The notes under the pieces were generated by a model. The model was not told the DNA's origin, made no database searches, and saw only the letters and a list, made by a program, of their open reading frames with translations. The position numbers and the translations under genes are program-made. A DNA stretch of 34,370 bases from Gammaproteobacteria bacterium (GTDB taxonomy: Bacteria; Pseudomonadota; Gammaproteobacteria; Pseudomonadales; Cellvibrionaceae): assembly GCA_022600975.1 (NCBI GenBank), contig JAHZJJ010000100.1, positions 1 through 34,370 on the forward strand, in the 5' to 3' direction. Below, piece after piece: positions 2,758 to 14,064 of this stretch (position 1 is its first letter; each line of letters starts with the position of its first letter).

Positions 2758-3120
2758 TTAAAAACTCAGTACGCTATCGAACGCAGCAATAAAACGGCCA
2801 GGGTCTGCGATCAGTTCGATTGCAATGCCTGGTAGGCGAAGTTGACCACAGTTCAAATTTCTCTTTTCAAGGCTGTGCTGGCAGACATAAAGCTTATCGA
2901 TACCAAAGATCGAAAGGGCCTCTAGGTTACGACGCACACTTTTTTGTTCAATGCTTTTTGCGTTTTGGTCTTTGAGTAATTGAAATACGCCGTCATGCAT
3001 AAAAAGTAACACCGGGGCTTGTTCCATGGCTGCGGCAGCGAGCACCGCTTCTAACCCTTCGCGGGCGAGGGCATCCCCGTAAGGTGGGCGACGGCAAAGG
3101 GCAAGTATACTTTTAGACAT
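2758..3120 (-). CDS. tusC: TusC (DsrF-like), subunit of the TusBCD sulfur-transfer complex
   Basis: The 120-residue DsrE/F-like protein begins MSKSILALCRRPPYGDALAREGLEA in TusC fashion (split here only for reading: S-I-L-A-L-C-RRPPYG, then A-EGLEA). It continues with FMHDGVFQLLKDQ, a middle segment FGIDKLYVC and a C-terminal IAAFDSVLSF. TusC packs with TusB and TusD in the hexamer and has no known catalytic Cys of its own. Only three bases separate it from the tusD stop, consistent with cotranscription. Confidence 0.92.
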   Translation of the reverse strand: MSKSILALCRRPPYGDALAREGLEAVLAAAAMEQAPVLLFMHDGVFQLLKDQNAKSIEQKSVRRNLEALSIFGIDKLYVCQHSLEKRNLNCGQLRLPGIAIELIADPGRFIAAFDSVLSF

Positions 3121-3123
3121 GAA

Positions 3124-3516
3124 TCAGTCTCCAAAAGTGACCAAGCGATCCGAATACACTACGGCATCAACTAATTGGCCGAGACCCGCCAGTTCAAATC
3201 CCGCCGCTAGGTTGGCCGCTGGCTTTCCCAGACGCTCGGCCTCTGAGGCACTAAGCAAGCCGCGCCTTTGTGCCGCGGCAATACACACTACCAAATCGAG
3301 TTGATGTTGCTGCTGCAGCGCCTGCCAACCAGCTACAATATGGCTTTCATCTTGCGGCGGAGCCTCCAGTGCACTAGCGTTATGAACCCCATCGCCATAA
3401 AAAAACACCCGATACAAATTGTGTCCGGAGGCTAAAAGTGCTCGCGCGAAGCGCAGTGCACTAGCAGCGCCCTCCGCACTGTGGGGTGCACTAAAAATAA
3501 CCAGAGTAAATTTCAT
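3124..3516 (-). CDS. tusD: TusD (DsrE-like), catalytic sulfurtransferase subunit of TusBCD
   Basis: TusD receives persulfide sulfur from TusA and passes it to TusE. The 130-residue product matches family length and begins MKFTLVIFSAPHSAEGAASA. The catalytic cysteine lies in DLVVCIAAAQRRGLL at residue 78, the same number as in E. coli TusD. It is the first gene of tusDCBE. tusA is absent from the window. A hairpin lies 17 bp upstream of its start, between it and yccA. Confidence 0.94.
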   Translation of the reverse strand: MKFTLVIFSAPHSAEGAASALRFARALLASGHNLYRVFFYGDGVHNASALEAPPQDESHIVAGWQALQQQHQLDLVVCIAAAQRRGLLSASEAERLGKPAANLAAGFELAGLGQLVDAVVYSDRLVTFGD

Positions 3517-3532
3517 AGATCATTAAACGCAA

Positions 3533-3557
3533 AGTGCCCCGCAAAAAGCGAGGCACT
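3533..3557 (-). terminator. Hairpin terminator between yccA and tusD
   Basis: Read on the minus strand, AGTGCCTCGC pairs with GCGGGGCACT (10 bp, one T-G wobble) across a TTTTT loop, 38 bp past the yccA stop. The bases after it on this strand (TTGCGTTT) are only moderately T rich. On the plus strand the same stem, with one mismatch, is followed by ATTTTTTC. It probably ends most yccA transcripts. Because tusD begins just 17 bp beyond it, some read-through may feed the tus genes. Confidence 0.65.
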
Positions 3558-3594
3558 ATTTTTTCTTGCACTGTTAACTCAAAGTAAGCTGCTA

Positions 3595-4275
3595 TCAGTC
3601 GTTAGAGGCAAAACCAAAAATACTCAATAACGCTGTAAATAAGTTAAGAATGTCCAAGTACAGTCTTGTGGTCGCCATCAGGTAGTTGGTTTCACCACCA
3701 TTTACGATCTGGCTGGTATCATAGAGAATGAAACCGGAAAAGAGTAGTGCAATAGCCCCACTCAACACAACACTGGCCAGTGGCATATAAACGCCAAAGA
3801 AGCCGGCCACAACCATACCCAAGCTGCATACCAGTACCGCAATCAGGCCGACAAACAAAAAACCACCCATAAAGCTAAAATCTTTGCGAGTAGTCAGCAC
3901 GTAGGCGGAGAGTGCAAAGAAGACCAATGCTGTTGTGCCGAGTGCCTGAGTGATGATCTGGCCACCACCTGCGAGCCCGAGATAATGATTCAACAACGGG
4001 CCGAGAGAGGCGCCCAGCAGGCCAGTGAAGGCGAATACCACGCCTATGCCAGCACTGGAATTAGCGGTGCGTGGCAATACAAACCATACCAGGGCAATGG
4101 CTGCGATAGAGCAAATCAGGCCCATGCCACGGCCGACCCCCAGCGCTACAGAGAGCCCAGCGGTAACAGCGCTGAATAGTACTGTCATCGCCAACATGGC
4201 GTAGGTATTGCGCAATACCTTGGCGGTCTCCCGGCGATCCAGTGCCCGAGATTGTGAATAAAGTTGCGTTTGCAT
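3595..4275 (-). CDS. yccA: BAX inhibitor-1/YccA-family membrane protein
   Basis: The 226-residue, very hydrophobic protein has about seven transmembrane segments, starting after a short cytoplasmic N terminus (MQTQLYSQSRALDRRETAKV). The family signatures NTYAMLAMTVLFSA near residue 24 and SGFILYDTSQIVNGG near residue 180, with a C-terminal YLDILNLFTALLSIFG, identify the BI-1/UPF0005 family. E. coli YccA interacts with and modulates the FtsH membrane protease; other BI-1 members form calcium leak channels. The neighbouring tusE/yccA association is also seen in enterobacteria. It has its own sigma70-like promoter (4328-4356) and is followed by a terminator. Confidence 0.93.
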   Translation of the reverse strand: MQTQLYSQSRALDRRETAKVLRNTYAMLAMTVLFSAVTAGLSVALGVGRGMGLICSIAAIALVWFVLPRTANSSAGIGVVFAFTGLLGASLGPLLNHYLGLAGGGQIITQALGTTALVFFALSAYVLTTRKDFSFMGGFLFVGLIAVLVCSLGMVVAGFFGVYMPLASVVLSGAIALLFSGFILYDTSQIVNGGETNYLMATTRLYLDILNLFTALLSIFGFASND

Positions 4276-4408: not shown

Positions 4409-6931
4409 TCAAAATTGCGAATTTTCCCCTGGCTGAGGACTATCCGTCGCTGGAACCTCCAAATCGACCACTAAGGGCAAATGATCAGAAGCCATCCGTG
4501 TCAACTCATTGCGTGGTACCTGTACTCCGATAACCTTAAACCCGCCGTCGATAAAAACATGATCGATACGGGTTTTGGGCAAGCGACTGAAAAAAGTACC
4601 TTGTGGCTGATGTTGGGGCAGCTGCAGTTGGGCATCCAATAAGTGTCTTCTAAGCCGTCGGTATTCCGCGGAGCCGGGCATAGCATTAAAGTCCCCCAAT
4701 AGAATCCTCGGTTGTTGACAGCGCTCATTACAGAGCCAGTCTGTGCTGACCAGAGCGTCTACCTGGCGCAATCGTTCGGCTTTATTTAACCCCAGGTGGG
4801 TATTTAAAATTTGTAATTTTGCACCATTACACTGAACTTCGACCCATAGAGCCCCGCGAGGTTCAGCGTGACCAAATTGTCGAGATTGAGGCGCGGGGCC
4901 AGGAAGAATGTCTTTCTTGATCAATGTTATCGGCAGGCGCGATAATATTGCATCACCATAACGCTCTTCCTCTAGGTGTATTGCCGGCTGAAAGTGAAAC
5001 TCCATCGCCAAAAGCTCAGAGATCTGCACCACCTGGTCAACACCCCCCGTGCGCTGTCGCTGCACATCCACCTCTTGCAGTGCAACGATATCCGGAGCAT
5101 AACGGGCAATAACACGGGCTATTCGGCGCGGCGACAGTTTGCCATCGATACCGCGGCAAATGTGCACGTTGTAGGTCATAACCCGAATTTTTCTGGTGGT
5201 ATAATTGGCGGATACCGATGTTATCTTTGGTTTTCCATATAAAAAATCTAGCGCTGCCTGGCGAATATCCATTGGTCTCCAATGGCCACGCTGCCGATTT
5301 GGGGCCGGAATATCTTGTGGCATCAACGCAAAAGCGTGGGTTTCATTGGGCCCAGAACCACCGTGACTGCCACTTTCAATAGCAAAACTCACACTCTGAC
5401 TGCCGGCGCTCCAACCACAGAAAACAAAATCTCCAGCATCTGGATGATGGCACAAGTTGACTAGGTCCACCGCTGCCTCAGCCGCAAAAGGGTGTGCTTT
5501 GCCGAGCACTTTATCTGCATCTCGTGGCAATTCTACTGGGGTATCACGCCACCAGCCGAATGCCTTTAAGGACGCCTCTGCCGATACCCCTGTCGATTTC
5601 AATAAACCACTATTCGATACCAGCTTTGATCTGTAAAGAACCAGCGGTACGCCGGTTTTTTTCACCAGAAAACGGGCAACTTCCACCTGACTGCGATCAT
5701 GCAATTCTAAATTATATAGCAGCCCCAATGGCCCCATTGCTGAGAGAGCCAAGGGTGAACCGGGCTTACCTACTTCAGGCTCATCAACAGGAAACAGTTT
5801 TTGTATCCATTGGCCGCCGAATAAACGCACCCGCTGTAATTGCACACCGCGCTGACCGGCGCTGCTTAGGGTCTCCGATTCTGGATTTAGACTTGACAAC
5901 GCCGAGGAAACAGCTTCGGCCAACGGGCGCCCGTGAATTGCTTCGTAAGACTGACTGTCCTCCTGACCGTGGTCGGAGTAAATCCATACGTCGTAGTGTC
6001 GCCGAAATGAGCGTTGGGCAGCCCGCCATATGCGCGCCACCGTATCGTCAATGCCCTTCAAGGTCCAATGGGCAAATTTTGAACTGGGGCCGCGTCGGTG
6101 GGCCTGCTCGTCATACCCCAACAAATTGATAAAAATAATCGGTACACCGCGGGCAATATCGATTTTCACCCCCAGAGTGGACAGTTCCCGTGTGAGTATG
6201 GTGATGGCAAGGCGGGTGGGAATAAACATTAATTCGCGGATAAAATCCTGCCCTTGGACTAGGCCACGGAAAAAATCTACTAGTGATAACACTAGCTCTA
6301 CCAATAGTAGGCCGATTGTGCGTATTAACCCCCACAAGCTGGCCAGAATCATCAACACTATTGACAGCCATCCCGCCTCGCTCAATGCCGGCCCCCAACC
6401 TCGCGATGAAGAACAAAAATGTGCCTCCTTTGCATCGCTTCCGGCGCGAAAGACACTCACATAGCAACTGCCATCTTTTAACAGTGGTCTATGCCCTGTA
6501 GCCGCCAATTTTCGTTCAACGCAATCGGCTGCATACGGCTCATACATGCGCATCATCTGCCCCGTATCGCCGGAGAAAAATCCAAACGCCGGTACTGCTG
6601 TTTTTACGCCGTAAAAGATTTCCGCCTGCACCGCTGGCGTAGTGGCAGGCACTCCGGAATAGAGATGTTCCAAATGATAGTGTTCTCGCTCCAGCAGGCG
6701 CTTAATAAATGGCATTTTGCCGTTAGCCATGGCCTTTTGCAGCTGCTCGTGCGCGAGACCATCAATCTGAATCAAAACCAGCCCACGCTCATCTGGGTCA
6801 CCCTGATGGAACGATAGCTTTAATAATCTTGCAAGCCATTCACTGCGACTGAAATAACGACGCCAACGGCGCAATGTGGATTCAATTTGAGCAATCATCA
6901 ATGCTCCATGTGCAATCAATCGACGCATCAT
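4409..6931 (-). CDS. Alkaline-phosphatase-superfamily / EEP-domain fusion protein
   Basis: This is an 840-residue two-domain protein. The N-terminal half is a type I phosphodiesterase-like alkaline phosphatase fold: metal ligand in LIQIDGLAHE (D57), likely Thr nucleophile in SGVPATTPAVQAE (about 97), LLGYDEQAH (D274, H278), YSDHGQ (D320, H321) and SGSHGGSG (about H523). A hydrophobic stretch of about 35 residues (about 186-221) could form a membrane hairpin inside it. The C-terminal part (about 582-830) is an EEP domain with TYNVHICRG, ALQEVD, NTHLG, LLGDFNA and SDHLPLV. The ATG at 6931 overlaps the upstream stop (ATGATG). An ATG at 6898 with GGAG five bases upstream is an alternative start. 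A longer frame to 7189 lies inside the glycosyltransferase gene and is rejected. Substrate unknown; both folds commonly hydrolyse phosphodiesters, including phospholipids. Confidence 0.85.
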   Translation of the reverse strand: MMRRLIAHGALMIAQIESTLRRWRRYFSRSEWLARLLKLSFHQGDPDERGLVLIQIDGLAHEQLQKAMANGKMPFIKRLLEREHYHLEHLYSGVPATTPAVQAEIFYGVKTAVPAFGFFSGDTGQMMRMYEPYAADCVERKLAATGHRPLLKDGSCYVSVFRAGSDAKEAHFCSSSRGWGPALSEAGWLSIVLMILASLWGLIRTIGLLLVELVLSLVDFFRGLVQGQDFIRELMFIPTRLAITILTRELSTLGVKIDIARGVPIIFINLLGYDEQAHRRGPSSKFAHWTLKGIDDTVARIWRAAQRSFRRHYDVWIYSDHGQEDSQSYEAIHGRPLAEAVSSALSSLNPESETLSSAGQRGVQLQRVRLFGGQWIQKLFPVDEPEVGKPGSPLALSAMGPLGLLYNLELHDRSQVEVARFLVKKTGVPLVLYRSKLVSNSGLLKSTGVSAEASLKAFGWWRDTPVELPRDADKVLGKAHPFAAEAAVDLVNLCHHPDAGDFVFCGWSAGSQSVSFAIESGSHGGSGPNETHAFALMPQDIPAPNRQRGHWRPMDIRQAALDFLYGKPKITSVSANYTTRKIRVMTYNVHICRGIDGKLSPRRIARVIARYAPDIVALQEVDVQRQRTGGVDQVVQISELLAMEFHFQPAIHLEEERYGDAILSRLPITLIKKDILPGPAPQSRQFGHAEPRGALWVEVQCNGAKLQILNTHLGLNKAERLRQVDALVSTDWLCNERCQQPRILLGDFNAMPGSAEYRRLRRHLLDAQLQLPQHQPQGTFFSRLPKTRIDHVFIDGGFKVIGVQVPRNELTRMASDHLPLVVDLEVPATDSPQPGENSQF

Positions 6932-8202
6932 TGCCGTGAGATTTGCCTCAGTGCTGCACCTGCAGCGCCAGTAACTCCTTCGATAATCTCCCACTGAGCT
7001 CCAATAATATTGCGCAGCCTCAGCCATTGGGCATAGAGAGAAGCGTCCAACAACCAGGGTTGATGTAACAATGGTTGGTAATGGTCCAGGGCAGACTGAG
7101 CACAATTGGGCATTGAAAAAGCCTTTGCTGTAGTTAGCGCATTTTGACTCAAACATTGCCTCTGTGCCCGAGGCAGTTCGTAATACCATTGCAGTGCGGC
7201 CGCCAGTTCATGGGGATTGCCCTGCTTCACCAAGCGGCCATTGTGGTGATCTCGCACAACTTCGCGGCAACCATTGGCATCCAGTGTCACCACAGGAACT
7301 CCCGCAGCCATAGCCTCGGTGAGCACCATGCCCTGGGTCTCACTGGTTGAGGAAAAAGCAAAAATATCCATAGCATTGTAGGCATTGCATTGCTGCGCAC
7401 CATTGAGCATCCCGGTAAGATGTAAGCGCTCACTGAGCCCACAGTTAGCAAATTGTTTTGCCAACGCTTCTTTTAATGGCCCATCGCCAACCAGTAAAAA
7501 ATGTGCTGAAGTATTTTGTTGGAGAAATTCAATAACAGCACAACAGAGAAACTCGAGGTTTTTTTCCGCAGCCAAACGCCCGAGATGACCAACAACAAAA
7601 GCGTTTTCTGCTATTCCATAAGCTGCACGCACCTTTTTACCATTACCGTGGCAATAGTTTTCCAACTGTACTCCAGTCGGTATTACTGCAATGGGTTTGC
7701 TAACACCGCGGCTGCGCAACAGTGTGGCAATACTATGGCTGGGAGCAAATACTTGGGTGGCAAGATTGGCATAGCGGGTAGCCAGCTCAATTACAAAACG
7801 TTTAAGCATCTGCGAATCTGCCGGCACATAATGGGTATAACGCTCGTAGAGCGTATGGTGTGTAAATATCAGTGGTAATTCCCGTGCCCGGGCTATTCTT
7901 AGCGCGGTCATCCCCAATAAAAATGGATGGTGAGAATGCACAATATCGGGGCGAAATAAGTCGAGTCTTGTGCTCAACTCCCGTGACAACGGTAGCGCCA
8001 CAGAAAAGTCGCTACCGTTAAAATTTTGAATCGCAGGAATGCGAATAACATTGGTTTCATTGGCAATTTTTTCGGGAAATTCAGGCGCAATAACCAATAC
8101 CTTGTGTCCGCATGTTCGATAGGCTTCACTAAAAGCGCTGACAGATCGCGCAACACCGCCGACATGGGGCAAATAAGTATTGGTTAACATTAAAATGTTC
8201 AA
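6928..8202 (-). CDS. GT4-family glycosyltransferase, possibly lipid-directed
   Basis: The 424-residue GT-B enzyme begins NILMLTNTYLPHVGGVARSV, the usual N-terminal strand and glycine loop of group 1 transferases. HSHHPFLLG and FTHHTLYERYTHYVP follow (about residues 90-125), a pattern I associate with diacylglycerol glucosyltransferases. The C-terminal donor site is GRLAAEKNLEFL, then LVGDGPLKEAL and FAFSSTSETQGMVLTEAMAAG, with the E-(7)-E motif typical of retaining GT4 enzymes. I chose TTG at 8202 because it gives MNILMLTN and overlaps the upstream stop (TTGA). ATG at 8190 is an alternative. The ATG at 8298 would add residues that lie inside the hydrolase gene. Donor and acceptor are not known; the lipid acceptor is inference. 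Confidence 0.88.
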   Translation of the reverse strand: MNILMLTNTYLPHVGGVARSVSAFSEAYRTCGHKVLVIAPEFPEKIANETNVIRIPAIQNFNGSDFSVALPLSRELSTRLDLFRPDIVHSHHPFLLGMTALRIARARELPLIFTHHTLYERYTHYVPADSQMLKRFVIELATRYANLATQVFAPSHSIATLLRSRGVSKPIAVIPTGVQLENYCHGNGKKVRAAYGIAENAFVVGHLGRLAAEKNLEFLCCAVIEFLQQNTSAHFLLVGDGPLKEALAKQFANCGLSERLHLTGMLNGAQQCNAYNAMDIFAFSSTSETQGMVLTEAMAAGVPVVTLDANGCREVVRDHHNGRLVKQGNPHELAAALQWYYELPRAQRQCLSQNALTTAKAFSMPNCAQSALDHYQPLLHQPWLLDASLYAQWLRLRNIIGAQWEIIEGVTGAAGAALRQISRQ

Positions 8203-10451
8203 TTGGCTATTAATTCCACAAACTCTGCCCCTGCTGCTGCCGTGACCGGGCGATACCCTTGCGCGCGAATCTCCACAGTTGGCTTCTGACGATACCAATT
8301 AGCACTCCAACAAACACGTGGTCTATTTCCCGGTTGTATCTCCAAGGTGAGCGTACCAAATTCTGTCGGTGCCGGGCCAAAGCGTAGCGGCGCTTGAGCA
8401 CTGCCATCAGCCAACCATTCTGGCGGTAGGCCCGATGCCAGAATCAGTGCCTCGCCCTCCTCGCGCACAAAACAGTTACGCTGCATAGTCAACCATTCAG
8501 CGGCGGCCCAAGCGTGTTGGCCATCACCCATACAACCACCGAGAGAATGGGGGTGTATAGCCTCCGGCCACTGTCCCGTGGCAGAGGCCAAACTTGCAAC
8601 ATTACGCATCAGAGTGACACAGCGCGAATCACCGGCTCGCAGCAATACTTGAGCGACATGTAGCGTAAGATAGGCGTTAATACCAGAGTGAATCATGTCC
8701 TGAAAAAAGCCGCCCTTTACAAAGCAGTTTTTCAGCAAATAGTCCACCGAATCCATTAGCCTGGGATCATCTTCGGGGTATAATTTCAACGGATAGCCGG
8801 CAACAATAGAGCCGATGGCACCAGCATCCAGGCGCCGATTGGGAGATGCGGGTATTGCCTTGCGTCGCAGACGCTCTGCGACCCTGATCAGACCTCGATC
8901 CACAGTAGCTTGAAAATTTTTGGCCTGTTGCAAAAAAATATTTTGTTCTTCGGTCCAGCCCTCTCGCGCACAGATAGCCGCGGCGGCCTGTTGCCCGGCA
9001 ATACCCCAGAAATCATCCCAATAATAATAATCGTTGGGCCCCAAATGCTCTGCGCTAAATCCAGCGGGTAGCAAACCCCCACACAGACTGCCATCCTCCG
9101 GCAGGCGTTTTTTGTCTATCCATCTAGCACCGTGAAGAACCGGAGTTTTCCACGTGCTTTTTAAGGGCCGATTAGCCAATTTACAATACTGGTCAAAAAT
9201 CCACAGAACCTCGCCATTGGAGTCCCATTCACCATCTTGAGAATGAAAGTAGCCGTTGTGCTTTTGCCGTGCTGGAAAGCGTTCGAGAGCGCGTTCAGCT
9301 CTGCTGATTAATCCTGCATGTAACAGCGACTGAATCATAAATGCCGCGTCACGGAACCAGAATCGCTTATAAGTATAGGGCCCTGGGTACACATCTTGCG
9401 GTGAATGAATTATCAAGGTCCTCACTGCCGCATCATAAAGAAATTGAAACTGTGCATCCGGCACCGATAAGCTGCAGTGACCTTCAAGGCTTATTCTCCA
9501 GTTGTGCTTTACCTTTTTTTGTTTACGTGAGCAACGCAATGGTATTTTAACTTGGGTGGTTAACAACTGATCGGGCTCTAGTTTAAACAATGCCGCAGCG
9601 GTGGCCATGCCCACATTACACTGGCTATGCATTTCTTCACTGCTTTGGTGAAGATACAAATAGATATCCCCACGGCGGTAGTCCGATGCGTGATGCCGAT
9701 CTACTGGACGATCAAAAATAATTTTGTCTCTACCATCAATCAGCCATTGACGACGGCTTTTATTCAATGCAACCTGATGGATAAAGCTGACACCTTCCGG
9801 ATTGCAAGGGCGCAGAGCCACCACCAGCCAACCGCCGAGAATATGCTTGGCATCGATATCTATTAGGCATTGATTGTCAGCCGCGTCCAGTACAGAGTAA
9901 ATACGAGATTTAAGCCACATCGGGCCTTTGCTGGATTTCGTGACTACCGCCACACCATCGTTCAGATCTAATTGTTGCGATAACTTTTGCAATTGTGAGG
10001 GCATAAGGTGATCACTTTTGTTATTGCTATTGCCGATCACCCAACAATCCAGTGACCAACCATCATAATGGGGCGTTAGCAGCCCCCGGGGATCAACAAT
10101 AGGCATTTCCTCACTATCTGGCACCGATACTGCCGTCCAGTTGCGATGGCTCAAATTACAGTGGGTAATAGAAAAGGCTCGAGGTATAAAGGCCACATCA
10201 CCAGGGTCAAACTGACGTTCGATCCAATAGGGCCAAATCCAGTCGAGGTTATGTTGAATCACTTTGCTGTTAATTAGTGCCCGCGCATGAAATACCACCC
10301 CTGCCCGCAGCAACTCAATAGGCTCGCTCACCTCAGAGGGTTCGGCAAAGTGTTTTAGTCGAGCCATAATCGCCAATGGGTCAAGAAATCCATGGGCATT
10401 TGCGAGCTTGCGCACAAAAAAGCGCCAGGGCAACCACTTTATCCATGGCAT
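8199..10451 (-). CDS. GDE-like glycoside hydrolase (amylo-alpha-1,6-glucosidase type)
   Basis: The 750-residue protein has an N-terminal beta-rich domain (to about residue 330; RQFDPGDVAFIPRAFSITHC, then PIVDPRGLLTPHYDGWSLDC) and an (alpha/alpha)6-barrel catalytic region (about 340-690) like that of glycogen-debranching C-terminal domains. Supporting segments are YTYKRFWFRDAAFMIQSLLH, DSNGEVLWIFDQY, NDYYYWDDFWGIAGQQAAA and GDGQHAWAAAEWL. No signal peptide is seen, so it is probably cytoplasmic. The substrate cannot be named. Being encoded with a glycosyltransferase suggests it trims or makes a glucan or glycoconjugate rather than plain glycogen; no glycogen genes are nearby. Its ATG overlaps the stop of the upstream membrane protein gene (TGATG). 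Confidence 0.82.
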   Translation of the reverse strand: MPWIKWLPWRFFVRKLANAHGFLDPLAIMARLKHFAEPSEVSEPIELLRAGVVFHARALINSKVIQHNLDWIWPYWIERQFDPGDVAFIPRAFSITHCNLSHRNWTAVSVPDSEEMPIVDPRGLLTPHYDGWSLDCWVIGNSNNKSDHLMPSQLQKLSQQLDLNDGVAVVTKSSKGPMWLKSRIYSVLDAADNQCLIDIDAKHILGGWLVVALRPCNPEGVSFIHQVALNKSRRQWLIDGRDKIIFDRPVDRHHASDYRRGDIYLYLHQSSEEMHSQCNVGMATAAALFKLEPDQLLTTQVKIPLRCSRKQKKVKHNWRISLEGHCSLSVPDAQFQFLYDAAVRTLIIHSPQDVYPGPYTYKRFWFRDAAFMIQSLLHAGLISRAERALERFPARQKHNGYFHSQDGEWDSNGEVLWIFDQYCKLANRPLKSTWKTPVLHGARWIDKKRLPEDGSLCGGLLPAGFSAEHLGPNDYYYWDDFWGIAGQQAAAAICAREGWTEEQNIFLQQAKNFQATVDRGLIRVAERLRRKAIPASPNRRLDAGAIGSIVAGYPLKLYPEDDPRLMDSVDYLLKNCFVKGGFFQDMIHSGINAYLTLHVAQVLLRAGDSRCVTLMRNVASLASATGQWPEAIHPHSLGGCMGDGQHAWAAAEWLTMQRNCFVREEGEALILASGLPPEWLADGSAQAPLRFGPAPTEFGTLTLEIQPGNRPRVCWSANWYRQKPTVEIRAQGYRPVTAAAGAEFVELIAN

Positions 10452-11161
10452 CAGTTGCGCCCTCTATGCATTTTATGCCCGATTGCACGCCGGGCTATTC
10501 GTATAATTCCGATTAACGCAATAAGCGCCAACACAAAGCCACTGAGGTAAAGAGTCCACTCTATCGATGTACGCTGATCTCTGGGGCTGCCAATACTGGC
10601 AATGCTCGAAGCAATAGAGCCCAGATATACATTATTGAGACTGATTGGAATAATGCCGATAAAAGTACCCAGCACGAACTCTTTAAACCGCAACCGTGTC
10701 AAACCAAAAAAATAATTGGAAAGCTTAAATGGAAACAAAGGCAACAACCGTGTAAACATAACCAGCTTCCAACCCTCTTGCTCAATAATATCTCCAAGAT
10801 TTTGCGGACGAATATGGCCCATAACCCAAGCAGATGCTCGCCGCCCAAATAGATGGCGCGCTATCAGAAAAGCGAGACTGGCACCCAGCCCGGTGCCTAG
10901 AACTACCAATAGGGTGCCCTTCACCACGCCAAATATAAACCCCGCCCCCATAGTGAAAAATACCCCCGGCACTAACAGCATTACCGATACTGCAAGTATT
11001 AGGGTGAATACTAGGTCGGCAACCGAACCATGACCATCCAACCAATCCAGCAAATCAATGACATACTGCTGTACATCAAAGTAAAACAGCAGCCCGATAG
11101 CCACCCCGGCGATCAGTGCACTAGCTAGAATGACCCACAGCGGATGTATTGGCGATTGCAT
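10451..11161 (-). CDS. TVP38/TMEM64-family (VTT domain) membrane protein
   Basis: The 236-residue protein has about five to six hydrophobic segments. The VTT/DedA signature appears as LLVPGVFFTMGAGFIFG (about residues 61-77), GTGLGASLAFLIARHLFGRR and then FTRLLPLFPFKLSNYFFGLT, with a reentrant-loop style arrangement. Members of this superfamily (TMEM41B/VMP1, DedA) are linked to lipid scrambling or undecaprenyl-phosphate and phospholipid transport. It is the first gene of a four-gene cassette whose members overlap by a few bases. It has no strong Shine-Dalgarno, and no convincing promoter was found in the 225 bp upstream. Confidence 0.9.
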   Translation of the reverse strand: MQSPIHPLWVILASALIAGVAIGLLFYFDVQQYVIDLLDWLDGHGSVADLVFTLILAVSVMLLVPGVFFTMGAGFIFGVVKGTLLVVLGTGLGASLAFLIARHLFGRRASAWVMGHIRPQNLGDIIEQEGWKLVMFTRLLPLFPFKLSNYFFGLTRLRFKEFVLGTFIGIIPISLNNVYLGSIASSIASIGSPRDQRTSIEWTLYLSGFVLALIALIGIIRIARRAIGHKMHRGRN

Positions 11162-11386: not shown

Positions 11387-12460
11387 ATGATGAAGCAAGG
11401 TACTAAAAAGGCGGTGCTCTACGAAATTACCGTCAACGGCGTTCTTACTATGCTAAAATTTATTGCCGCGACCCTGACCCATTCAGCGGCGATGATGAAT
11501 GAAGCAGTGCACAGCCTAATGGATACCCTCAATCAGATAACTTTATTGATTGGGCTAAAAAGTGGTGATCAACCAGCAGACCAGCAATATGCCTTTGGCC
11601 ACGGCCAAAAAAAATATCTGTGGAACCTATGGAGTGCAGTTGGCCTGTTTTCGATTGGTTGCGGCGTTGGGCTCACCCACGCCTGGCACGCGTGGAAACG
11701 GCTTGAGTACGTCGATATTCCCTCTGTGGTACAAATTTTTGGCATTGGAGTATCGGCCTTTTGGATATCTGCAATGGTGCTTATTATTGCTTTTTGCCTG
11801 GAAGGTTATGTTTTATTAATTGTTTGTAGGGAATTTTCGATACGTATGCGTGCCAAGCGCATTACCAATCCATGGGAATATTTTTCCAAAGTTTATGACC
11901 CTACAATAACTGCGGTATTATTGGAGGATACGGTAGCCATTGCTGGCATCATTCTGGCTGCCGCTGGTATCGGGCTGACAAAACTGACGGGAAGCCCATT
12001 GTGGGATATTGGCTTTTCTGCTGCTATTGCCGTGATGCTTGGATTTACGGCAATTTTTCTCGCTAAAATCAATATGACCTACCTGACTGATATTCGCGAT
12101 TTGGAAGCGGAACAGACTTTTAGGGAAATTCTGCAGCAACATCGAGAAATAAAGCGATTTAATGATTTACGCTCCATCATTTTGGACGATAATCATACCC
12201 TTTTAGTGGCAGAAATTGAGCTTCGTGAAGAAGTTATTCTGGCGCAAGTCTATAAAAGTATTACCACATATAGTGACAAATTAATGGATAAGGTTCTGGA
12301 AGAAAAACATAATAGTGACGTACGCAGCTATGCTGAAACGCGCTCAATTGTTCAAGCAACATTTGAGTATACTGAAAAAATCACCAACGAATTGGAAGCA
12401 GAGCTCAAAGCCCGCTGCCCCCAGGTATTTCACGTAACGATCGAAGTCCAGGTTAGCTAA
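11387..12460 (+). CDS. ZnT9-like cation diffusion facilitator transporter
   Basis: The 357-residue membrane protein is of the CDF family and would export divalent metal (zinc most likely) in exchange for protons. TM2 carries the HxxxD metal site (NEAVHSLMDTLNQ, about residues 43-53). This is followed by YAFGHGQKKYLWNLWSAVGLF. TM5 reads AVLLEDTVAIAGIILA, where the usual His four residues before the Asp is replaced by Val and a Glu precedes the Asp, as in the SLC30A9/ZnT9 branch. It ends with a cytoplasmic ferredoxin-like domain (LLVAEIELREEV onward). Two ATGs are adjacent at 11387 and 11390; neither has a clear Shine-Dalgarno. The gene is more A/T rich than those downstream of iscR. Confidence 0.9.
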   Translation: MMKQGTKKAVLYEITVNGVLTMLKFIAATLTHSAAMMNEAVHSLMDTLNQITLLIGLKSGDQPADQQYAFGHGQKKYLWNLWSAVGLFSIGCGVGLTHAWHAWKRLEYVDIPSVVQIFGIGVSAFWISAMVLIIAFCLEGYVLLIVCREFSIRMRAKRITNPWEYFSKVYDPTITAVLLEDTVAIAGIILAAAGIGLTKLTGSPLWDIGFSAAIAVMLGFTAIFLAKINMTYLTDIRDLEAEQTFREILQQHREIKRFNDLRSIILDDNHTLLVAEIELREEVILAQVYKSITTYSDKLMDKVLEEKHNSDVRSYAETRSIVQATFEYTEKITNELEAELKARCPQVFHVTIEVQVS

Positions 12461-12549: not shown

Positions 12550-14064
12550 ATGTTTGATTTTAAAATTATTTTTCGCTACACAGCACCGCTACTGTTCATC
12601 TATGCAGCTGCGGACATTATGTATAAAACTGCCGGTTATCATGCCAGCAGTTTAGAAAAGCTTTCCATTATTGCTTTTTATGCTGCAGTTAGCTCTTATC
12701 GACTTTCATTCTATTTGATCGGCTTGCCAGTCACGTTACTCTATGCAGCCTACACTCCGATTGGTTATACGTTTGGCGCACCCACATATCAATATATAGC
12801 ATCGATTTTTTCTACTAACGCCAACGAGATCTCTGAATTTGCATCTATCATTCCCCTTAAGTCATGGATCTACTCGCTAATTATAGCCGGGTGCGTATCT
12901 ATATTTTGGCTGTTGGTTAGAAAGAAAAAAATTAGCTATATACGCAATAAGTGCATTCTTGCTCTGTGTGTTACATTACTTTATTTTATAAATCCTAGTC
13001 CGTATCTCTTGCTTGAGACTGCTCTTTCCTCGTCTGGACAGGTCAAAGCCGAAATGGAAGCCTTAGAAAAAATGTCAGATTTTAATGACAGCTGGGGGAA
13101 ATCACGAGTTTTACCAGACGGATATGATGACTATGTTTTAATTATCGGTGAAAGTGAAAGGCGTGACTACATGCATAAGTACGGCTATGCTATTCCTAAT
13201 ACACCATTTATTGATAAGACTCCAGGAAAGGTAGTTGATGGCTTACTATCCGCAGGAAGTAATACAGTTGCATCACTACGCCTTATGTTAACCTTGCCGG
13301 AAGATGGCAAACCAAGATATCCACTTAACGTAATCGATCTCGCCCGCTCTGCCGACATATATACCTATTGGATATCAAATCAAGGCTATATCGGTGAACA
13401 TGATAGCCCAGTGACCGCAATTGCTAACAGAGCCGATAATATGTTTTTTTTGAAAAGTGGTGCTTACAATTCAAAGCCCACAAGTGATTACCAATTACTG
13501 CCAATCCTAAAAGCTAAAGTGGGCAATGAAGCAAAAGGAAAAAGATTATTTGTCGTTCACCTTTACGGGTCGCATATTAACGTGTGCAACAGAGTAAAAG
13601 ATTTTGATGGATTTTCAGTTATTAAGGACGAGTATAAATATATTTCATGTTATGTATCCAGCATTAAAAAAACGGATAGTGTAGTTAAAAAAATCTATGA
13701 TACAATGAAAGAATCACAAGAACAAAGTGGACGAACCTTCTCTATGGTTTATTTTTCTGACCACGGCCAAATACACCACAAAGATAACAAAGAAATCCGA
13801 CTCAGGCACGGAGATACAGCTTACGCCTATAGTGTACCGCTAATAAAAATATCTAGTGATGATACAAAGCAATTTAATATAAAAGCTAAAAAATGCGGGG
13901 TAAACTTTGTCAATGGCCTTGGCACCTGGATGGGAATTAAAAACGACCACCTAATGCACTATGATTTATTTTCGGAGCAATCAGATAGCGCTACGTGCAT
14001 CGGAAGCAAGGCTCCTGAGCTTGAGGATTCAGCAATAAATATCGAACCTTATTTATCAAAATAA
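12550..14064 (+). CDS. Phosphoethanolamine transferase-like protein (EptA/CptA/OpgE type)
   Basis: The 504-residue protein has four to five N-terminal membrane helices (to about residue 160) and a periplasmic sulfatase-like domain. The family would transfer phosphoethanolamine from phosphatidylethanolamine to LPS, glucan or another glycan. Metal and nucleophile sites are visible: VLIIGESERRDYMHKYGY (Glu ligand, about 202), AGSNTVASLRLML (Thr nucleophile, about 236), YFSDHGQ (Asp-His, about 405) and RLRHGD (His, about 424). The pattern of GES, GYAIPNTP and SLR is closer to CptA/OpgE-type than to EptA itself. The gene is notably A/T rich against its neighbours, with AAA, ATA and TTT codons, which suggests acquisition. 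The acceptor cannot be told from sequence. Confidence 0.85.
   Translation: MFDFKIIFRYTAPLLFIYAAADIMYKTAGYHASSLEKLSIIAFYAAVSSYRLSFYLIGLPVTLLYAAYTPIGYTFGAPTYQYIASIFSTNANEISEFASIIPLKSWIYSLIIAGCVSIFWLLVRKKKISYIRNKCILALCVTLLYFINPSPYLLLETALSSSGQVKAEMEALEKMSDFNDSWGKSRVLPDGYDDYVLIIGESERRDYMHKYGYAIPNTPFIDKTPGKVVDGLLSAGSNTVASLRLMLTLPEDGKPRYPLNVIDLARSADIYTYWISNQGYIGEHDSPVTAIANRADNMFFLKSGAYNSKPTSDYQLLPILKAKVGNEAKGKRLFVVHLYGSHINVCNRVKDFDGFSVIKDEYKYISCYVSSIKKTDSVVKKIYDTMKESQEQSGRTFSMVYFSDHGQIHHKDNKEIRLRHGDTAYAYSVPLIKISSDDTKQFNIKAKKCGVNFVNGLGTWMGIKNDHLMHYDLFSEQSDSATCIGSKAPELEDSAINIEPYLSK

Follow-up and report, generated by a model that had tools for sequence, protein, structure and literature searches.

Four genes on the minus strand of the window, i.e., the whole stretch of 34,370 nucleotides analysed here, form a genuine and widely distributed cassette encoding, in this order, a VTT/DedA-superfamily membrane protein (VTT), a protein with a glycosidase fold (GH), a GT4 glycosyltransferase (GT4) and an NPP-EEP fusion. 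The unit and its conservation, the domain content of its products, their conserved active-site residues and the fold class of the GH are direct observations. We see an even chance that the cassette is a co-translated module for the glycosylation and recycling of glycerolipids at the inner face of the cytoplasmic membrane. A literature search, conducted mostly outside subscription journals, did not find a description of the four-gene set.

Organization of the locus

The window belongs to a genome of 179 contigs (2.81 Mb, 80.8% complete), placed in the genus that holds Microbulbifer relatives. The features of the cassette are as follows.

10451–11161, minus strand: first gene, VTT/DedA-superfamily membrane protein of 236 amino acids (PF09335, E 4e-25)
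8199–10451, minus strand: GH, glycosidase-fold protein of 750 amino acids, without Pfam or NCBIfam match, assigned by fold search
Within the GH: candidate catalytic residues, base E630 and acids E468/D474/D479/D480
6928–8202, minus strand: GT4 glycosyltransferase of 424 amino acids (PF13439/PF00534)
4409–6931 (840 amino acids) or, probably, 4409–6898 (829 amino acids), minus strand: fusion of an NPP-type phosphodiesterase and an EEP domain (PF01663, PF03372, PF23226)
6896–6910, minus strand: likely ribosome-binding site and start of the fusion (GGAG, 5 nt, ATG at 6898), from the sequence and the conserved Met12

The VTT gene (11161–10451) and the GH gene (10451–8199) have one base in common (TGATG), and the GH and GT4 genes overlap by 4 nt, the GT4 start being a TTG at 8202 that overlaps the GH stop and agrees with the conserved start position of GT4 relatives. 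Both junctions stand as initially annotated. The ATGATG at 6931, annotated as the start of the fusion, is possible but doubtful, and the start at 6898 is probably the better one, because Met12 (numbered from the 6931 frame) is kept in 38 of 38 aligned fusion rows, 36 of 37 relatives begin exactly at this position (with script-assigned starts) and a GGAG lies five bases upstream of the ATG. With this start, the spacing between the GT4 and fusion genes would be 29 nt.

Conservation of the cassette

A GH-based scan with one genome per species yielded 354 encoding stretches, the best 80 of which were kept, the loci being chosen by GH. The initial annotation had taken the four genes, with their start-stop overlaps, as one unit and had named a conserved order of the four families in other genomes as a check on it. 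The genes exist, and the order VTT-GH-GT4-fusion, with adjacent genes and gaps <400 nt, was found in 50 of these best 80 of 354 loci, two of which (L035 and L046) have the fusion gene truncated by a contig end; four-gene loci occur in Microbulbifer, Methylobacter, Rheinheimera, Desulfobacterota and others. All four genes are present in 51 loci, the exception to the order being L043, where the fusion lies upstream. The remaining loci comprise 5 VTT-GH-GT4, 7 GH-GT4-fusion, 4 GH-GT4 and 13 VTT-GH arrangements, counts that include some partial loci ending at contig ends. The overlaps recur as well (all with script-set starts): VTT/GH in 56 of 69 loci, GH/GT4 in 57 of 67, with exactly 4 nt in 53, and GT4/fusion in 24 of 58, of which 20 are 4-nt ATGA/GTGA overlaps, while 31 more lie within 60 nt. 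Clustering of the flanking genes indicates that the neighbours are lineage-specific, whereas the unit is conserved. Distance correlations of 0.88–0.94 over 49 loci were obtained without a genome-wide control and are not counted toward interaction. A contig labelled as a Halobacteria archaeon (L042) holds the full cassette, and its GT4 falls with a gammaproteobacterial one; this contig is probably misbinned.

Since the 80 loci had been selected by GH, 369 genomes sampled from the class, among them that of the window, served as the fair test (thresholds: E 1e-30 for GH and E 1e-100 for GT4, with at most two candidates scored per genome for GH and for the fusion). Here, GH is found in 16 genomes, GT4 in 21 and the full-length fusion in 11. 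By coordinates, GT4 adjoins GH in 16 of 16 GH-positive genomes, and the joint presence of GH and GT4 has a hypergeometric probability of 5e-24, kinship ignored. A GT4 adjoins each of the 11 full-length fusions, with a contig break there in G279; nine of the 16 GH-positive genomes carry the fusion and seven are without it, and GT4-fusion pairs without GH are present in G168 and G279. In five of the seven fusion-less GH-positive genomes (L145, L146, L147, L149, L156), a tblastn search of the sequence retrieved around GH-GT4 gave no VTT gene, and the fusion is absent genome-wide in two cultured GH-GT4 strains, Methylobacter sp. BlB1 and Thiohalophilus. Because of the two genomes without GH, the seven without fusion and the five of these in which no VTT was found, we call GT4 the core of the cassette; VTT, GH and fusion are partners that are sometimes missing. 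In Thiohalobacter thiocyanaticus, a fusion gene (L091) is unlinked from the GH-GT4 pair (L071) of the same genome; it matches model positions 1–644 of 806 only, with one stop counted.

In Marinobacter, just VTT and GH occur together (13 of 13 loci), and these are all the VTT-GH loci of the 80. None of the seven Marinobacter genomes searched has a GT4 better than E 1e-88 or a fusion, and therefore the GH must be useful without the cassette GT4.

Properties of the four proteins

The GH is the newest part of the cassette. Its fold combines an (alpha/alpha)6 barrel with an N-terminal beta-sandwich, which is the architecture of GH15 (PF00723), and the protein is probably a sugar-cutting enzyme. Searched against Pfam with a limit of E 10, the window GH had no model reported, GDE_C included (HMMER filters drop most matches above ~0.1), and there was no match in NCBIfam. 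In a gathering-score test with PF00723, the window GH gave no match and 3 of 48 aligned relatives matched, the best at E 0.18. With GH15 glucoamylases, glucodextranase and dextran dextrinase it shares 12–13% identity, its N-terminal 100 residues remaining uncovered. The sequence gives a slight preference for GH15 and none for GDE, so that of the "GDE-like hydrolase" of the initial annotation the glycosidase fold is retained and the GDE assignment is dropped. Membership in GDE was rejected on the missing match to GDE_C (PF06202) and on hhalign comparisons to GDE sequences (P 0.17–0.19 vs. 0.53–0.62 for unrelated negatives). The window's own genome has neither a GDE_C nor a GH15 Pfam match. Glucan trimming by a GDE, as once suggested, finds no sequence support, though amylo-alpha-1,6-glucosidase is among the near-ties of the fold search. 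The fold neighbours include many soluble glucosidases whose substrates are glucans or disaccharides, and hydropathy reveals no membrane segment in either GH or GT4.

The assignment of GT4 to its family is based on the Glyco_transf_4 and Glycos_transf_1 domains and the E-x7-E motif; residues E288, E296, R209 and K214 are kept in 38 of 38 aligned rows. In NCBIfam, the window GT4 scores highest with alpha-monoglucosyl-DAG synthase NF049988 (162.3 bits vs. 114 for the next), a model that all 38 aligned GT4s match at E 1e-20 or better. The score is nevertheless far below the curated cut-off of 400, so that GT4 is not a member, and the label does not discriminate. A Marinobacter protein (L088:1465–3708) joins an N-terminal metallophosphatase-like domain, just below the Pfam cut-off, to a hydrophobic segment and a GT4 part scoring 209 bits on NF049988, above the cassette GT4; GT4s with comparable scores are encoded in open frames of 751–832 amino acids in six further Marinobacter genomes, one of these frames containing a stop. 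Since this out-of-clade GT4 scores higher, NF049988 was set aside as weak evidence of glucosyl-DAG synthesis. The GT4 tree separates the cassette, DUF374-fusion and Halomonas-type GT4s from the Marinobacter proteins (100/100) but leaves 18 inner forks open, and a single origin of the cassette is therefore not claimed.

The NPP part of the fusion scores 44.5 bits on PF01663 (cut-off 23) and keeps D57, T98, D274, H278, D320, H321 and H523 in 38 of 38 rows, a D, T, D-x3-H, DH, H set that we take to be the metal and nucleophile residues of NPP enzymes. Likewise, the EEP part scores 90.9 bits on PF03372, above the cut-off, and N588, E620, H712, D747, N749, D790, D816 and H817 are kept in 38 of 38 rows; the N, E, D-x-N, D and SDH residues are presumably the EEP functional set. 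PF23226 (PGAP2IP-type EEP) is also matched. By hydropathy, a hydrophobic hairpin-like stretch (residues 181–226) lies within the NPP domain.

The second NCBIfam model of the window GT4, that with 114 bits, is N-acetylglucosaminyl-phosphatidylglycerol synthase, which would suit a direct decoration of phospholipids (e.g., to glycosyl-phosphatidylglycerol) with the NPP-like domain transferring head groups or editing them and not supplying diacylglycerol. Unidentified phosphatidyl glycolipids in Microbulbifer strains (PMC9637087, in part) point the same way. We consider such a decoration quite unlikely: the GT4 score is far below the cut-off of that model (480), and the complete NPP residue set fits a phosphodiesterase equally well.

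The VTT is probably, by its sequence, of the COG0398 type. In COG0586 DedA proteins, undecaprenyl phosphate flipping is tied to acidic residues in the tip of the first re-entrant segment, and COG0398 VTT proteins are termed putative phospholipid scramblases (PMC10127716, in part). Positions 60–80, which were assigned to this tip by eye, are without acidic residue in 27 of 27 aligned VTT rows, as is the PGxxxTxGAG segment of COG0398 DedA/TVP38 proteins; unlike for the cassette VTT, no glycosidase-fold or GT4 neighbours are named for the latter in section 7 of PMC10127716. We consider it very improbable that GT4 acts on an undecaprenyl-linked glycan while VTT recycles undecaprenyl phosphate. Flipping of this lipid by DedA-superfamily proteins of another subfamily (PMC10127716, in part) and a Glu at 81, near the first re-entrant segment, in 11 of 27 rows would speak for it; besides the tip, the shared neighbours, taken as ORFs without family annotation, argue against it in that they show no polysaccharide gene cluster.

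Evidence for a probable lipid substrate

Fusions of DUF374, presumably a lysophospholipid acyltransferase-superfamily domain, to a GT4 of the cassette clade occur in G039 and G185, which represent two genera of one family and are the sample's only genomes of that order; in G365, from another family, a stand-alone DUF374 gene lies 37 nt upstream of GH-GT4. Profile comparison of DUF374 with acyltransferases of the LpxL type gave no significant result (P 0.14), and among PDB sequences the only match was a designed protein (E 0.06). All four of the Halomonas-type genomes fetched (L150, L163, L164, L165) have GT4 next to a convergent VTT gene, with no GH beside it. Finally, all six EEP-only matches in the class sample (E 1e-40 or better; five genomes plus a second site in G224) have a PLD-like neighbour, divergent in L119, and in four it is a PLD-VTT fusion; in L120, L123 and L124, the EEP frame is known from the sequence match. 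These PLD-VTT fusion proteins adjoin the EEP genes in L120, L121, L122 and L123, with overlapping reading frames in L121.

Six Microbulbifer strains, including M. aggregans and M. rhizosphaerae, all contain glycolipids and unidentified phosphatidyl glycolipids (Table 1 of PMC9637087) and are all alpha-glucosidase negative by API ZYM (PMC9637087, in part). The whole cassette is present in the M. aggregans and M. rhizosphaerae loci (L004, L007), a match that is a correlation only, without a cassette-free control.

Because of the GT4-DUF374 fusions, the GT4-VTT pairs without GH, the EEP-PLD neighbours, the hairpin of the fusion and the Microbulbifer glycolipids, a lipid is the likely substrate of the cassette, though the link is indirect. 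The initial proposal that the cassette builds or remodels a glycolipid is accordingly kept in its lipid part, without the GDE glucan trimming. The first two of these findings, the PLD/VTT company of the EEP relatives and the membrane-linked genes, which make up two of the four in 50 of the 80 loci, weigh against a soluble alpha-glucoside or short glucan (osmolyte or reserve) made and degraded by GT4 and GH, with VTT and fusion as looser partners. We hold this to be unlikely, even if it would agree with the soluble glucosidases among the GH fold neighbours, the absence of a membrane segment in GT4 and GH, the five class genomes with GH-GT4 and neither fusion nor VTT neighbour, and the Marinobacter VTT-GH pairs without GT4.

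Proposed glycolipid module and known systems

In the glycerolipid module that we favour, the NPP-EEP fusion, membrane-held by its hairpin, would strip phosphate-containing head groups off phospholipid, and this removal would supply the acceptor, either diacylglycerol or trimmed phospholipid. GT4 would then add a sugar with retention, yielding an alpha-glycosyl lipid or phosphoglycolipid, VTT would let the lipid equilibrate across the leaflets, and the GH, as a GH15-like exo-alpha-glycosidase without membrane segments, would remove or trim the sugar, rendering the modification reversible. The order of these steps is tentative. Against the module count the Marinobacter VTT-GH pairs, the GH-positive genomes without the fusion, five of them also with no VTT gene found, the want of a strong Pho box and the negative alpha-glucosidase tests of the six Microbulbifer strains. 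Glucose has about a one-to-one claim to be the sugar, and a role of the GH as a lipid deglycosidase is conceivable, though we lean against it. It is doubtful that one operon holds a self-contained reversible membrane-glycolipid cycle made of head-group stripping, glycosylation, scrambling and cytosolic deglycosylation by a new glycoside hydrolase family.

By analogy, the cassette may be compared in its logic with a system built on PlcP, which we take to be a metallophosphoesterase. In the PlcP-Agt lipid remodelling operon of Pseudomonas aeruginosa (PA3219-PA3218), a phosphoesterase gene lies beside a glycosyltransferase gene, and a phospholipid head group is swapped for a sugar, as would happen with the cassette (PMC8528852, in part). 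PhoB control through a Pho box and MGDG/GADG-type glycolipids are marks of this pathway. The cassette differs in its NPP-EEP fusion, in the additional VTT and GH genes and in that no strong Pho box was found: the best site of the window scores 10 of 16, at background. Among 69 related upstream regions none reaches at least 13, and 2 of 69 reach at least 12.5, vs. 0.2% of 1,380 random same-locus stretches; the mean best score is 10.23 vs. 9.88 in these stretches, a control that is not composition-matched.

A further parallel involves ybhP, presumably an EEP protein. The ybhP-clsB-ybhN operon of Salmonella (PMC9241728, in part) and the PLD-VTT + EEP pairs resemble the cassette in tying an EEP protein to phospholipid synthesis, the pairs also in tying it to VTT. 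The cassette, in contrast, has no PLD enzyme, and its EEP is joined to an NPP domain.

If the proposed module is correct, the cassette would provide candidate enzymes for the unidentified glycolipids and phosphoglycolipids of Microbulbifer, a second, non-PlcP design for phospholipid/glycolipid exchange in Proteobacteria, and a glycoside hydrolase family whose window member draws no Pfam or NCBIfam model.

Neighbouring genes in the window

On the plus strand, a CptA/EptA-like phosphoethanolamine transferase (Sulfatase domain) is encoded at 12550–14064 in DNA of 39% G+C, with a CDF cation transporter beside it at 11387–12460. Downstream of the cassette, the minus strand at 2758–4275 encodes two proteins of the DsrE family and one that is Bax1-I/YccA-like; among the 80 loci, a Bax1-I gene stands beside the cassette in Microbulbifer loci only.
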